In this document: positions 9,900 to 34,818 of the stretch, one piece after another | Numbering within the stretch: position 1 is the first letter of the stretch | Layout: every line of letters begins with the position of its first letter | Assembly: GCF_001723285.1 (NCBI RefSeq) | Contig: NZ_LPWG01000012.1 | Coordinates: 62,001 to 126,000 of the forward strand | Direction: 5' to 3' | Source: Methyloceanibacter methanicus | GTDB taxonomy: Bacteria; Pseudomonadota; Alphaproteobacteria; Rhizobiales; Methyloligellaceae | DNA length: 64,000 nt | Translations under genes and position numbers: made by a program | Notes under the pieces: generated by a model | What the model was told of the DNA's origin: nothing | The model's input: the letters and a program-made list of their open reading frames with translations, nothing else | Database searches by the model: none

Positions 9900-10730
9900 A
9901 TGCTGGACACTCGGATAGAAGATGAGGGGCAGTCTAACGCTGGCGTGCAGCGTTACCGGGCCCTTTTCATTTCCGACATTCACCTTGGCACCAAGGCTTG
10001 CCAGGCTGAAGCCTTTCTGGACTTTCTGAAAACGCACAAGGCGCCGCGAATCTACCTCGTGGGCGACATCGTAGACTTCTGGCGCATCCGGCGCGGGGTC
10101 TACTGGCCGCAGCCCCATAACGATGTCCTGCAAAAGCTCCTGCGTGAGGTTCGGAAAGGTACCGAGCTCATCTACATCCCGGGCAATCACGACGAGGCCA
10201 TGCGCGAATATTGCGGGTCGCAGTTCGGCGGCGTCGTGATCGAGCGGCAGACGATCCATACGGGCGCGGACGGGCGCCGCTATTTGATCATGCATGGCGA
10301 CGAGTTCGACGTGGTGGTGCGCTATGCCAAATGGCTGGCCTTTCTTGGAGATTGGGGCTATGTCACGGCCCTGTGGTTCAACACCCATCTCAACGTGGTG
10401 CGCCGCTGGTTCGGAATGCCCTATTGGTCGCTTTCGGCCTATCTGAAATACAAGGTCAAGCGGGCTGTGAATTTCATTGGTGAGTTTGAGCACGCTCTGG
10501 CGCAGGAAGCGCGCCGGACGGGCACCCAGGGCGTGATCTGCGGCCATATCCACCATGCCGCTATGCGCCAGCTCGAAGACGTGGTTTATATTAACACGGG
10601 CGATTGGGTCGAGAGCTGCACGGCAGTCGTTGAGACCGAAGAAGGAGACTTCCAGATCATCCGTTGGAATCCTCATACCGGCGTGCGTGAGCCCGAGACT
10701 TCCTCCAAGGAGCTTGAGGCGGCCGCCTAA
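9900..10730 (+). CDS. LpxH-like metallophosphoesterase (UDP-2,3-diacylglucosamine diphosphatase family)
   Basis: Calcineurin-like phosphoesterase of about 276 residues with the two-metal motifs in order: FISDIHLG, GDIVDFWRIR, PGNHDE, IMHGDEFD and CGHIHHA. This is the LpxH family pattern, but alphaproteobacteria generally use LpxI for the lipid A step, so this paralogue may act on another lipid or nucleotide-sugar diphosphate. ATG 9900 is preferred; a GTG at 9849 in the same frame would add 17 residues. Its TAA shares the A with the next gene's ATG, so it forms a tight pair with the glycosyltransferase and both probably work on one glycolipid pathway. Confidence 0.82.
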   Translation: MLDTRIEDEGQSNAGVQRYRALFISDIHLGTKACQAEAFLDFLKTHKAPRIYLVGDIVDFWRIRRGVYWPQPHNDVLQKLLREVRKGTELIYIPGNHDEAMREYCGSQFGGVVIERQTIHTGADGRRYLIMHGDEFDVVVRYAKWLAFLGDWGYVTALWFNTHLNVVRRWFGMPYWSLSAYLKYKVKRAVNFIGEFEHALAQEARRTGTQGVICGHIHHAAMRQLEDVVYINTGDWVESCTAVVETEEGDFQIIRWNPHTGVREPETSSKELEAAA

Positions 10731-11803
10731 TGCACATTCTCGTCGTCACCGACGCCTGGTTTCCCCAGGTCAACGGGGTTGTGCGCACCTACGAGCGGCT
10801 GGCGCAGGAAATTCCCAAATTCGGCGCGGAGATCAGTTTCCTCGTTCCTTCGCAATTCCGCACGCTTCCCTGTCCCACCTATCCGGAAATCCGGCTCGCG
10901 CTGGCGACGCCCGGTATGGTCGACCGCTATATCGAGGGCGTCGGGGCGGATTTCGTGCACATCGCGACGGAAGGGCCGCTCGGTCTTCTGGCGCGGAGCT
11001 ATTGCCGCAAGCACAAGCGTCCCTTCACCACGAGCTATCACACGCGCTTTCCCGAATATATTTCGGCGCGCCTGCCAATCCCTGAGTCCTGGGGTTACAG
11101 CTTCCAGCGCCGCTTCCACAATAGCGGTGCCGGCATGTTCGTGGCCGCGCCCTCGGTGGAAGAGGACCTGGAGGCCAAGGGCTTCCAGCGCATGATGCGC
11201 TGGACGCGTGGCGTCGACGTGGATCTGTTCCGGCCGCGCAACGTGCGGCTCTACGGGCAGGGGCCTGTCTTCATCTATGTGGGCCGTGTGGCCGTCGAGA
11301 AGAATATCGAGGCCTTTCTCAAACTCGATCTGCCGGGCCGCAAAGTGGTCGTCGGCGGTGGCCCTCAGCTTGCCGAACTCAAGCGCGCCTATCCGGACGT
11401 GCTCTTCACGGGCCCCAAGGAAGGCCTAGACTTGGCCGAGGCCTATGCCTCGGGCGATGTGTTCGTGTTCCCTAGCCTGACCGACACGTTCGGCCTTGTC
11501 CTTTTGGAGGCGCTTGCCTGCGGGGTTCCGGTCGCCGCCTATCCCGTCCACGGTCCCAAGGACGTGGTGGACGATCCGGAGGCCGGCGTGCTCGATCCCG
11601 ACCTCAGGACCGCGGCCCTCAAGGCGCTGGACCTCAGCCGCGACGCGGCACGGTCCCATGCCTTGAACTTCAGCTGGGAGAACTCCGCGCAGCAGTTTCT
11701 CGACAATGTGCTCGCGGCCCACAATCTCGGCCTGCCCGAACGGCGCCGGCTCCTGCCGCGCTTGCGGCCGAAAATGCTGATGCGGAAGAAGACGGCCGCT
11801 TAG
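10730..11803 (+). CDS. Glycosyltransferase family 4 protein
   Basis: A 357-residue GT-B glycosyltransferase. The N-terminal domain starts ILVVTDAWFPQVNGVVRTY, typical of the MgtA/PimB-like mannosyl- or glucosyltransferases that modify glycerolipids. The C-terminal donor-binding domain has FIYVGRVAVEKNI and the EX7E-type segment TDTFGLVLLEALACGVPV. It overlaps the upstream phosphoesterase by one base. Substrates are inferred to be an NDP-hexose and a membrane lipid. Confidence 0.88.
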   Translation: MHILVVTDAWFPQVNGVVRTYERLAQEIPKFGAEISFLVPSQFRTLPCPTYPEIRLALATPGMVDRYIEGVGADFVHIATEGPLGLLARSYCRKHKRPFTTSYHTRFPEYISARLPIPESWGYSFQRRFHNSGAGMFVAAPSVEEDLEAKGFQRMMRWTRGVDVDLFRPRNVRLYGQGPVFIYVGRVAVEKNIEAFLKLDLPGRKVVVGGGPQLAELKRAYPDVLFTGPKEGLDLAEAYASGDVFVFPSLTDTFGLVLLEALACGVPVAAYPVHGPKDVVDDPEAGVLDPDLRTAALKALDLSRDAARSHALNFSWENSAQQFLDNVLAAHNLGLPERRRLLPRLRPKMLMRKKTAA

Positions 11804-11811
11804 GCCGACCC

Positions 11812-11846
11812 CAAAAAGATGCGGCCCGGTGGGGGAACCGGGCCGC
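11812..11846 (-). terminator. Intrinsic terminator of small RNA A
   Basis: Perfect 10-bp stem GCGGCCCGGT (11821-11830) with ACCGGGCCGC (11837-11846), six-base loop, followed on the minus strand by ATCTTTTT. It lies 18 bases after the convergent glycosyltransferase stop. Confidence 0.75.
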
Positions 11847-11896
11847 TGCATGGGTCATGCGTCAGTTTAGGGGACGCGTTGGGGGATCTTGCGTCT
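11812..11896 (-). ncRNA. Candidate small RNA A (tandem copy 1)
   Basis: Predicted ~85-nt minus-strand transcript starting near 11896, seven bases past a CTTGAAA/ACCATCT promoter, and ending in an intrinsic terminator. The core has GACGCAAG, CCCCCAA, CGCGTCCCC and AAACTGACGCATGA in order. GACGC can pair with GCGTC on either side, giving two mutually exclusive small hairpins whose loops expose C-rich sequence. It shares this core, its promoter boxes and its terminator architecture with copy B 190 bases upstream on the same strand, while the spacers between these elements have diverged. That pattern of conservation is the main evidence for a real RNA gene. Targets are unknown; C-rich loops could pair with Shine-Dalgarno regions. 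Confidence 0.6.
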
Positions 11897-11902
11897 ACCC
11901 AC

Positions 11903-11931
11903 AGATGGTTCGGGCGCCCCCGGCTTTCAAG
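11903..11931 (-). promoter_or_regulatory. Sigma-32 (RpoH)-like promoter of small RNA A
   Basis: On the minus strand: CTTGAAA (11925-11931), 14 bases, then AACCATCT (11903-11910). The family consensus is CTTGAAA, 11-15 bases, CCCCATNT. The second box matches 6 of 8. The boxes are conserved with copy B although the spacer between them is not. Confidence 0.5.
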
Positions 11932-11995
11932 TGTGCCCCGATCTTTATTTTGACCCGCCACCGAACAAAGACCGCCAAGACAGAAACCGCCGAGC

Positions 11996-12035
11996 CAAAA
12001 GAAAACGGCCCGGTTGGGGGGGAACCGGGGCCGTT
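11996..12035 (-). terminator. Intrinsic terminator of small RNA B
   Basis: Arms at 12004-12015 and 12023-12035 pair with one bulged base; on the minus strand the hairpin is followed by TTTTCTTTT. Confidence 0.72.
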
Positions 12036-12086
12036 CGCATTTTCATGCGTCAGTTTGGGGGACGCGTTTGGGGGAAACTTGCGTCC
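11996..12086 (-). ncRNA. Candidate small RNA B (tandem copy 2)
   Basis: Predicted ~90-nt minus-strand transcript starting near 12086. It holds the same core as copy A: GACGCAAG, then CCCCCAAACGCGTC, CCCCCAAAC and TGACGCATGA, with CCCCCAAAC present twice. It ends in a hairpin (AACGGCCCCGGTT with AACCGGGCCGTT, one bulge) and TTTTCTTTT. It lies about 95 bases after the stop of the CheZ-like gene on the same strand but has its own promoter-like boxes. The arrangement of two homologous RNAs, each with promoter and terminator, resembles known tandem rhizobial sRNAs such as AbcR1/2, but homology to those was not seen. Confidence 0.6.
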
Positions 12087-12092
12087 CGCCAG

Positions 12093-12121
12093 AGATGGGT
12101 AGGCAGCCAAGTGCTTTCAAG
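12093..12121 (-). promoter_or_regulatory. Sigma-32 (RpoH)-like promoter of small RNA B
   Basis: On the minus strand: CTTGAAA (12115-12121), 14 bases, then ACCCATCT (12093-12100), a 7 of 8 match to CCCCATNT at allowed spacing. A housekeeping reading (TTGAAA, 17 bases, CATCTC) has a poor -10, so the heat-shock reading is preferred. Confidence 0.52.
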
Positions 12122-12181
12122 AGCCGGTGCGCATTTTTCCAGCGCACCGCCACAACATATTGAAATGTAATATGGAATGTC

Positions 12182-13162
12182 TCACCCAAAGAGTGAGGCA
12201 CGCTGCGTTGCGCGAAGCTCTTCCAGCGCCAGCGGCCCGGGTCTTTCGAATGGCCGCTGGAATGGCCGCGCACCGTTGGAAAGCGTATCTGCGGCCTCAC
12301 GCACCTCGGCCAGGTCAACGCCTTCGCCGGCAGCGGGTTCTTCGGCCACGTCCTGGGCCGCCGCAGACTCCAGTCCGCCTATGGTCTCTGCGAGGTCTTC
12401 CATCGGCACGAGCCGATTGGTCCGCAGTGTCTTGTGCATGGGGCTTCCCGGTGCCTCGGGGCCGGTCCGCGAGGCAGTCATCTCGAGCGCATCGCTCACA
12501 TCGAGTGCATTTGCCGCATCCAGAAGGTTCTGAGTTTCATGGTCGCTCCAGTCATCGATCAGCGCATCGATGCGGCGCTCCATATCGCGCAACAGGCGCA
12601 TCGCTTCAGCGCTCTTCTGCCCCGCGATCTCCTGGCGCGCGCAGGCCGTGTAGATGGCTACGGCGCTCTCATCCAGCATGTCGCAATGCTCTGGCGCGAC
12701 TCCTTCCTCGCGCAGCGTCCACGATACGTTTTGAATCTCTTCCAAGGCCATCAGCACATCCGACGTGGCATGGGTCGCGGCCTCGACGATCTGCTCGAAG
12801 GCGCAAGGCGCCGCACGCGGGTCGCCGCCGGGGAGGCCTACGAGGCCAAGTCCGCCGATCTCCCGCCGCATTTCGCTGATGGTTTCGCTCATCGCCACGA
12901 GTTCGGAGATGAGGGCCAGGGGGAGGCTCTTCCGCGCCGGTTCGACCGAAACGCCGTCGAGACGCCCGACCGTATCGAGCAGCAATTCAACTTCCGGTGT
13001 GGGGTGCTGGCGCGCATAGTCCGCCAGAAATCGGCGGCCGAGTTCGGTACTCTTGAGCGTAGCCTCGAGCGTAGCGTAGTCACCATCCTCAGCCGCGTCG
13101 GGCTGCGGGCCGCTACGACCTTGGAGTAGGGACTGTGAGGCGCTGTCGGCGCGTTTCAGCAT
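12182..13162 (-). CDS. CheZ-like / uncharacterised chemotaxis-associated protein
   Basis: A 326-residue soluble helical protein. Residues roughly 35-60 contain TELGRRFLADYARQHPTPEV, and the middle has an ATSDVLMALEEIQNVSWTLRE segment followed by CARQEIAGQKSAEA. This is the layout of the diverged CheZ-like proteins of alphaproteobacteria, where the usual DLTGQ of CheZ appears here as EIAGQ. No chemotaxis gene is adjacent and phosphatase activity is not established, so 'CheZ-like' is a tentative family call. The C-terminus is acidic and low in complexity. It reads toward the small RNA pair. Confidence 0.5.
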   Translation of the reverse strand: MLKRADSASQSLLQGRSGPQPDAAEDGDYATLEATLKSTELGRRFLADYARQHPTPEVELLLDTVGRLDGVSVEPARKSLPLALISELVAMSETISEMRREIGGLGLVGLPGGDPRAAPCAFEQIVEAATHATSDVLMALEEIQNVSWTLREEGVAPEHCDMLDESAVAIYTACARQEIAGQKSAEAMRLLRDMERRIDALIDDWSDHETQNLLDAANALDVSDALEMTASRTGPEAPGSPMHKTLRTNRLVPMEDLAETIGGLESAAAQDVAEEPAAGEGVDLAEVREAADTLSNGARPFQRPFERPGPLALEELRATQRASLFG

Positions 13163-34639: not shown

Positions 34640-34818
34640 GCACAAAAAAACTCCCCGCTTGGGGGCGGGGAGTGGAGAGTGTTTGGGGGACTGACAAGAC
34701 TGGCATGGCCAGTCGGTGTCGGACCATTAGCAGGGAACTGCCGGCGTTCTCACGGTTGGCGAATGAAGCTACCGGCGTCGCCAAATTCGCTGGTCCTCTC
34801 GGACCGCCGTAAGAGCGT
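34640..34818 (-). ncRNA. Candidate C-rich small RNA downstream of fliO
   Basis: The minus strand between fliO and ddpX holds a weak promoter (TTGAGG, 17 bases, TAGCGT, about 34825-34852), hairpins GGTCC-GAGA-GGACC and GACTGGC-CAT-GCCAGTC, an unpaired stretch with CAGTCCCCCAAACAC, and a strong terminator whose loop is also C-rich. CCCCCAAAC is the element repeated in small RNA B, although the rest is unrelated. It could equally be the untranslated tail of the fliO message. Confidence 0.4.
34644..34672 (-). terminator. Rho-independent terminator
   Basis: CTCCCCGC (34651-34658) pairs with GCGGGGAG (34665-34672); seven A's at 34644-34650 give TTTTTTT after the hairpin on the minus strand. It closes the fliO transcript or the small RNA, just upstream of ddpX. 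Confidence 0.85.

Follow-up and report, generated by a model that had tools for sequence, protein, structure and literature searches.

Tandem C-rich RNA genes with heat-shock-like promoters in Methyloceanibacter methanicus represent a conserved small RNA family

Does the short interval between two protein genes of Methyloceanibacter methanicus hold a pair of regulatory RNA genes and, if so, what would switch them on and what would they act upon? The question arises at positions 11812–12121 of the DNA analysed here (the window; 64,000 nucleotides of contig NZ_LPWG01000012.1, positions 62,001 to 126,000 of the forward strand), where the original prediction placed tandem, individually promoted, C-rich small RNA genes with heat-shock-like promoters. 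The minus strand of this interval carries two predicted RNA genes of approximately 85–91 nt each at an offset of 190 bases, each composed of its own −35/−10 pair, a conserved core and an intrinsic terminator; together they occupy the interval 3′ of a 326-aa gene up to a glycosyltransferase gene. The features of the locus are as follows:

12182–13162, minus strand: 326-aa gene, on the same strand as the RNA genes and upstream of both
12093–12121, minus strand: unit A promoter, with CTTGAAA at 12115–12121, 14 nt, then box ACCCATCT at 12093–12100 (from the whole-genome pattern search and the 43-copy table)
11996–12087, minus strand: unit A RNA gene, start at about 12086–12087 as deduced from the −10 box, end at about 11997
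12047–12085, minus strand: unit A core, with GACGC at 12081–12085, a C run, GCGTC at 12061–12065, CCCCAAACT and GACGC at 12047–12051
12003–12036, minus strand: unit A intrinsic terminator, with a C7 loop, then a U-rich tail
11903–11931, minus strand: unit B promoter, with CTTGAAA at 11925–11931, 14 nt, then box AACCATCT at 11903–11910
11813–11897, minus strand: unit B RNA gene, start at about 11896–11897 as deduced from the −10 box, end at about 11813
11859–11895, minus strand: unit B core, with GACGC at 11891–11895, CCCCC, GCGTC at 11873–11877, CCCTAAACT and GACGC at 11859–11863
11814–11846, minus strand: unit B intrinsic terminator, with its stem at 11821–11846, a C5 loop and a U-run at 11814–11818
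10730–11803, plus strand: glycosyltransferase gene (GT4-like), convergent with the RNA genes

The repeated arrangement held up in detail: the two CTTGAAA copies (12115–12121 and 11925–11931) lie exactly 190 bases apart, both cores read GACGCAAG, a C run, GCGTCCC(C) and YAAACTGACGCATGA, and each unit closes with a GC-rich hairpin, C-rich in its loop, and a U-run. The core pattern was matched twice in the whole 3.14-Mb genome, both times within 11812–12121, and its reversed control not at all. Unit A scored 94.2 and 96.5 bits and unit B 99.6 and 100.2 bits with covariance models R1 and R2, respectively, and none of 200 shuffles equalled either RNA in folding stability (z-scores of −3.5 and −4.2). 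The observation exceeds what chance would give, and its gene layout, conservation, two-sided helix changes and promoter layout are computed results. For the upstream 326-aa protein, neither Pfam nor NCBIfam gave a family at E ≤ 1e-3.

Among 41 genomes (the host's own, 16 others of its genus and 24 from elsewhere), a BLAST-type search recovered the RNA in 14, all of them of the genus, and covariance model R1 recovered it at 86 bits or more in 15 of the 17 genus genomes; the draft assemblies G007 and G015 gave weak matches only, resembling other RNAs. On reading the weaker matches, the total within the taxonomic family came to 28 of 30 genomes, with diverged members in G018 and G023 (genus g3), G021 (g6), G020 (g5, where the RNA is again a tandem pair), G019 (g4) and eight g2 genomes. 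Many other weak R1 and R2 matches were rejected, being either terminators of similar appearance or different RNAs with C loops. For the order, model R3, built on 38 members, matched 29 of 397 sampled genomes and 9 of 141 genera at E ≤ 1e-3, and 27 of the 29 were counted as real (7 genera; 20 genomes from family f1, five from f12 and a single genome from each of f10 and f17). Two were set aside: G395, with a C-rich hairpin and no CTTGA box upstream, and G282, with neither. The single match among 385 genomes sampled from the class was the host genome itself; the order and class samples were scored with stricter filters, and remote members may therefore be missed. Among 80 named genomes, R3, applied to 32, had its sole match at E ≤ 0.01 in Methyloligella sp. 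GL2 (the g3 member G018; NZ_CP054476.1), and R1, applied to loci from the 80, gave seven matches up to E = 1, with only that of GL2 below 0.05. The core is kept outside its own genome, across four families by the covariance-model search, and its retention within genus and family, together with the two-sided helix changes described below, bears out the earlier claim that the RNA genes are under selection. The RNA family, which occurs in methylotroph-related bacteria, is real, widely conserved and without a catalogue entry. Known in kind and new in sequence and wiring, it is an addition to the described RNAs that four groups of family rank within a single alphaproteobacterial order have kept.

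The selection originally proposed had been read from elements that were kept while the spacers between them diverged, and this pattern recurs across 21 aligned copies from 14 genomes, the host's included, in which CTTGA, CCAT.T, GACGC, CCCC, GCGTCCCC, AAA and TGACGCAT are invariant. Ten genus genomes carry one copy, three (the host among them) carry two and two carry three, counts that include drafts and may be underestimates. A tree of the genus copies joins the second copy of the host genome to that of G003 (support 0.98) and places the single G004 copy with the first copies of G005 and G014 (0.86–0.89); because copies group with their counterparts across species, a duplication predates these species. 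Full independence of the copies is opposed by copies 2 and 3, which cluster within their species in G014 (0.93) and, with low support, in G005 (0.41), and by the first copies of the host genome and G003, which do not group. A conserved peptide beginning at the ATG of GCATGA was rejected, that ATG being missing (GCATAA) in 3 of the 21 copies. Unit B is the sole one of the 21 genus copies to carry a U in the CCCCCAAACU stretch (window 11869, minus strand) and may be drifting.

A further proposal was that GACGC and GCGTC could pair in two exclusive ways. Helix 1 joins the first GACGC to GCGUC, and helix 2 joins the same GCGUC to the GACGC of the third segment, the two being mutually exclusive. 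Both exist in the window copies and could form in 24 of the 38 copies aligned, namely those with the upstream GACGC, which comprise all copies of the host genus (g1) and of g3 (Methyloligella); in the 14 copies from elsewhere the upstream GACGC is found in none and the alternative is absent, so this part of the proposal stands for two genera and not for the rest. In the window copies, upstream helix 1 has a predicted P of ~1.0 against 0.0 for helix 2, and forming helix 2 in place of helix 1 costs 4.1 (unit B) and 7.4 (unit A) kcal/mol. A heat switch operated by the two helices was ruled out for the window copies, helix 1 keeping a P of 0.95–1.0 from 30 to 55 °C. Of the 21 copies of g1, 17 are predicted to fold preferentially into helix 1 and four into helix 2, and the fold predicted for g2, g5, g6 and f12 combines helix 2 with a short 5′ hairpin (for example, GGGGAC...GUUCCCC).

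Counted per sequence, so that related genomes count repeatedly, and in an alignment fitted to the helix-2 model, helix 2 plus the terminator had 99.2% of cells paired in 37 distinct aligned copies, with two-sided changes in 9 of 14 pairs (45 cells), whereas slid-partner controls of the whole structure had 26–44% of cells paired and 0–1 two-sided pairs. The terminator stem showed two-sided changes in 7 of its 9 pairs; helix 2 alone was 99.5% paired, and two of its five pairs showed such changes (U-A to C-G and C-G to U-A). Nine helix-2 cells changed on both sides against 1.3 by shuffling, and no shuffle reached this cell number or the covariation score; of the 500 shuffles, 134 had at least as many two-sided pairs (2) and 392 at least as many pair types. 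Independent change events in helix 2 are few, because five related g2 genomes account for eight of the nine changed cells (the ninth is from f10). Helix 1 was rejected as a family-wide structure, with 81.6% of cells paired, no two-sided changes and breaks in up to 12 of 37 copies. The first C run of the body has at least four C in 38 of 38 copies, and the second, in the predicted helix-2 loop, has at least three in all 38 and at least four in 35; a terminator run of at least four C is found in 25 of 38 only, and both body runs are common to all.

CCCCATNT is the heat-shock −10 consensus of Escherichia coli. Measured against it with N counted, the boxes 14 nt from CTTGAAA agree at 7 of 8 (ACCCATCT) and 6 of 8 (AACCATCT) positions, the values first given for them. 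The pattern CTTGAAAN{13,16}CCATNT has three matches in the 3.14-Mb genome, two of them at 11812–12121, and its reversed control has none. In a table of 43 copies (spacings of 11–16 allowed; the order-level matches G395 and G282 left out), every copy places CTTGA 13–14 nt before a CCCCAT-T-like box (4–7 of 7 matches), a layout that, at the same 13–14 spacing and at least 4 of 7 matches, is shown by 1,375 of 200,000 random 68-nt stretches from 400 kb of the host genome; the −35 element reads CTTGAC or CTTGAT in 11 of the 43. The window copies have the form CTTGAAA-N16-CCATCT and one of the two host groES loci the form CTTGAAA-N16-CTAAAT. CTTGAAA-N16-CTANAT stands at 10 of the 29 groES loci scanned (from 36 matches found in 17 genomes), each from a different genome; the other 19 are without it, as is the second host groES locus. 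In their −10 box, the RNAs depart from this groES-type CTANAT.

The window RNAs match the RpoH-regulon layout (−35 CTTGAA, ~16 nt, −10 CCTATAT or CCCCATNT-like). The genome has one rpoH above the curated cut-off, and a second, weaker rpoH match sits in a 699-aa frame and is probably RpoD. Because the −35 element and spacing equal those of a groES promoter of the host itself, because the S. meliloti RpoH1 consensus is reported as CTTGAA-N16-CCTATAT (PMC8844928), because the f10 copy reads CTTGAAA...CCTACAT and because the genome has its own rpoH, RpoH is likely the sigma factor for both RNA genes on sequence grounds; with the layout kept in all tabulated copies, the description of the promoters as heat-shock-like was well chosen. 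With two mismatches allowed, the promoter pattern gave 169 matches in the host genome against 72 for the reversed control, an excess that was rejected as a regulon list, the matches being far too numerous. The third exact match (C12:188366–188394, plus strand; locus L106, 1501–1529) falls in a short gap between two genes: it follows one for Fe-S assembly and stands 7 nt ahead of the ATG of one for Fe-S biosynthesis (PF01521), and it may mark a further member of the RNAs' regulon. An A-tract or A/T-rich stretch lies upstream of many −35 boxes (window ~12122–12145 and relatives) and is perhaps an upstream promoter element.

The statement that the RNA belongs to no recognized family agrees with the catalogue: there were 0 Rfam (Rfam 15) matches at gathering for the window and 20 member loci, and neither an ar14/NfeR1 nor an AbcR family (AbcR1 and AbcR2 are also named ar15) was among the Rfam matches, whether at gathering or at E ≤ 10. 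The window RNAs align to the C-rich hairpins of Rhizobiales-2 RNA (RF01723) and 6C RNA (RF01066), in both cases below threshold (19.7 and 21.6 bits versus 40 and 47; E of 5.9 and 1.5), and score 16.1 bits with the CcsR1 model (RF02791) versus a gathering value of 65.3. Searches of the open-access literature found no description of these RNAs and nothing on a Methyloceanibacter small RNA or sRNA.

Four known systems invite comparison, each as described in the reports cited. The CcsR1–4 (cuckoo) RNAs of Rhodobacter sphaeroides, which are under RpoHI/RpoHII control, are likewise tandem homologous sRNAs with a C-rich motif (PMC10253847, PMC8307010), but they are made as part of the transcript of the DUF1127 gene ccaF1 and released from it by RNase E, whereas the window RNAs have their own promoters and terminators. 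No DUF1127 gene of a CIN1 locus is present at the window locus, and CCTCCTCCC, sought as the cuckoo anti-Shine–Dalgarno motif CCUCCUCCC in hairpin loops, occurs in 0 of 43 copies; the RNAs, which would resemble CcsR in working, are not filed as cuckoo/CcsR members. The Sinorhizobium ar14/NfeR1 and SmelA075–SmelA099 RNAs are also multicopy, with hairpin loops bearing C-rich anti-Shine–Dalgarno motifs that in NfeR1 pair with mRNAs (PMC10746234, PMC7143759, PMC3927594). They differ in having three or four hairpins with CCUCCUCCC, where the window RNAs have one conserved body helix plus a terminator, and NfeR1 has a sigma-70 promoter under LsrB and NtrC (PMC10746234). AbcR, first offered as a parallel in organization, is a fair one: AbcR1 and AbcR2 are adjacent homologous sRNAs with separate promoters and C-rich stretches that pair with mRNAs, AbcR1 being mainly LsrB-dependent and AbcR2 RpoH1-dependent through a promoter of the same layout; unlike the window RNAs, they measure 114–121 nt, carry two distinct anti-Shine–Dalgarno motifs and lie between an ArsR-type gene and lsrB (PMC8844928). 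GsrN of Caulobacter, an sRNA of the general stress response, uses a loop of six C to pair with G-rich sites in mRNAs, but it belongs to the EcfG/SigT regulon, activates katG and is reported to have BLAST homologues only in Caulobacteraceae (PMC5869019).

The suggestion that the C-rich loops could bind Shine–Dalgarno sequences fared unevenly in 464 kb of the host's DNA, where a home-made gene caller gave 305 genes, a surely incomplete set. Of 304 start regions, 12.8% contain GGGG and 5.6% contain AGGGG, versus 5.9–7.6% and 1.3–2.0%, respectively, across four control regions; GGGGG precedes 3.6% of starts versus 0.3–3.0% in controls, barely above one upstream control (3.0%). Duplex energies for the first C loop of unit A favoured start regions (P = 1e-5 versus gene interiors, 1.4e-3 versus upstream regions). 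Those of both terminator loops differed from interiors and not from upstream regions (P = 0.16 and 0.17), and those of the unit B first loop and the second C stretch differed from neither control (P = 0.07–0.40). CCUCCUCCC outperformed the RNAs' own C segments in the duplex-energy test. Outside the RNA genes, 17 genomes contain 14 sites for the seed complement CAGTTTGGGGG versus 6 for its reversed control, and 7 of the 11 examined are orthologous, lying in the host genome 3′ of glnA (glutamine synthetase). At those sites the glnA transcript carries the C run itself and not its complement; because seven of the 11 sites are in this orientation, no conserved mRNA target is in hand from the CAGTTTGGGGG sites of the 17 genomes. 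The evidence for targets is weak.

Our preferred reading, to which we give a probability of roughly two in three, is that the two paralogous RNAs are RpoH-driven and act in trans through their C runs on G-rich mRNA sites. Judged from anatomy and analogy, trans-acting regulation is most likely. Each gene would be transcribed from its own RpoH (sigma-32-type) promoter, and output should therefore rise in heat and other RpoH-inducing stresses. The terminator loop of each RNA would expose a C run, the body would add two more, and these would pair in trans with G-rich stretches near mRNA translation starts, repressing or otherwise tuning a set of mRNAs, while tandem copies would raise or diversify the dose. 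In the genus, the 5′ and 3′ GACGC would compete for the central GCGUC, so the RNA could present its first or its second C run in a loop. If RpoH-driven, the RNAs would extend the heat-shock response of this group, whose nearest named member among the genomes searched is Methyloligella sp. GL2, to the post-transcriptional level, much as CcsR and AbcR2 do while standing outside their families, and could serve to test whether C-run loops of differing sequence do the same job. The natural one-, two- and three-copy arrays in close species offer a way to measure the value of tandem dosage.

The RNAs may instead be real and stress-induced and use their C runs to bind a protein, or to sponge G-rich leaders or other RNAs, with no seed silencing. 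The same C run in body and terminator loops does look like repeated binding sites, CCCCC(AAAC) loops are common to several other candidate RNAs of these genomes, and the CAGTTTGGGGG search left no conserved mRNA target to set against this; the body C runs persist, however, where the terminator run does not, and in GsrN and NfeR1 loops of this type are described as pairing with mRNAs (PMC5869019, PMC10746234), which leaves a protein or sponge function rather unlikely. Improbable, too, is that sigma-70 or another sigma factor reads the promoters in place of RpoH: the alphaproteobacterial sigma-70 −35 CTTGAC is close to CTTGAA (PMC8844928), and it or CTTGAT stands in the 11 copies noted above, but the −10-like CCATCT, CCCCAAAT and CCCCATAT are unlike CTATAT, and the −35 element and spacing are those of the groES type.

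Neighbouring genes bear on two simpler accounts. By tblastn at E ≤ 1e-3 across 35 loci with members, most with flanks of ~1.5 kb, the glycosyltransferase gene was found at 19 (all 15 genus loci, the two g3 loci, g5 and f10, where it is 60.6% identical), convergent with the RNA at the g3, g5 and f10 loci checked, and the 326-aa protein at 18 (14 of the 15 genus loci, the two g3 loci, one locus of g4 and, as a short match where the flank ends, one of g2). Neither neighbour was found at the f12, f17 and g6 loci or at seven of eight g2 loci, where, with flanks mostly of ~1.5 kb, a neighbour may therefore lie outside or the locus may differ. That a glycosyltransferase gene adjoins every genus locus is what a mere terminator or 3′-UTR module between the convergent genes would lead one to expect, but each tabulated copy has its own −35/−10 pair, copy number ranges from 1 to 3, and f12 keeps promoter and core with neither neighbour within the flanks searched; we consider such a module very improbable. 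Similar tandem units with hairpins might also mark a palindromic repeat or small mobile element sitting here by chance, an idea made scarcely credible by a core found just twice in the genome, by the same neighbours across several genera and by copies that group with counterparts in other species.

Beyond the preferred reading of RpoH-driven, trans-acting RNAs, we entertain, as less likely than not, a broader idea, that unrelated sRNAs share the loop motif CCCCC-AAA(C), each under different control (RpoH promoters for the window RNAs, sigma-70-like promoters, the glnA 3′ region), and that a lineage-specific C-run seed replaces the rhizobial and Rhodobacter CCUCCUCCC seed; in the genus, the heat-shock members could also swap helices to change the C run shown.

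Several other C-rich elements were seen in these genomes. A second candidate C-loop RNA family lies outside the window at G000:C12:414916–414993 (plus strand; L201) and also at L203 and L190; its three successive hairpins all have C-rich loops, an arrangement like that of the three-hairpin NfeR1, and L201 and L203 have no Rfam match at gathering. A third (L197 in G003, L200 in G005, L194 in G008 and L199 in G012) combines a C-rich-loop hairpin (UUUCCCUCC in three) with a terminator whose loop is C-rich, and some members have TATAAT-like boxes upstream. A further candidate, L202 (host genome C4:136931–137012), L195 and L185, has a CCGUCCCCCAA(A)GACGG hairpin and a strong terminator with a UCUCCUUU loop. 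The 3′ region of the glutamine synthetase gene holds a conserved C-rich stretch (L277, ~1490–1540; host genome C12:200231) that reads GGUUC...CCAGGCUCCCCCAAACUGAACC in the host, with the same CCCCCAAACUG as the window RNAs, and has orthologues at L267, L270, L286, L288, L289 and L290. CCCCC followed by AAAC occurs eight times in the 464 kb (two of them in unit A), and followed by AACA, ACAA or CAAA 0–1 times each. The repeated element CTTGTCAGTCCCCCAAACA stands in three places in the 464 kb, at window 34649–34700 (minus strand), C11:771 and C11:147629 (plus strand), and in the window precedes a terminator with a CCCCCAAG loop. In g2, a structured element, GGGGGGGCGAGCC...GGCUCG... plus a terminator (G044, G043, G041 and G017, at L204–L207, and G022, at L193), lies ~1 kb from the RNA family member on the opposite strand.
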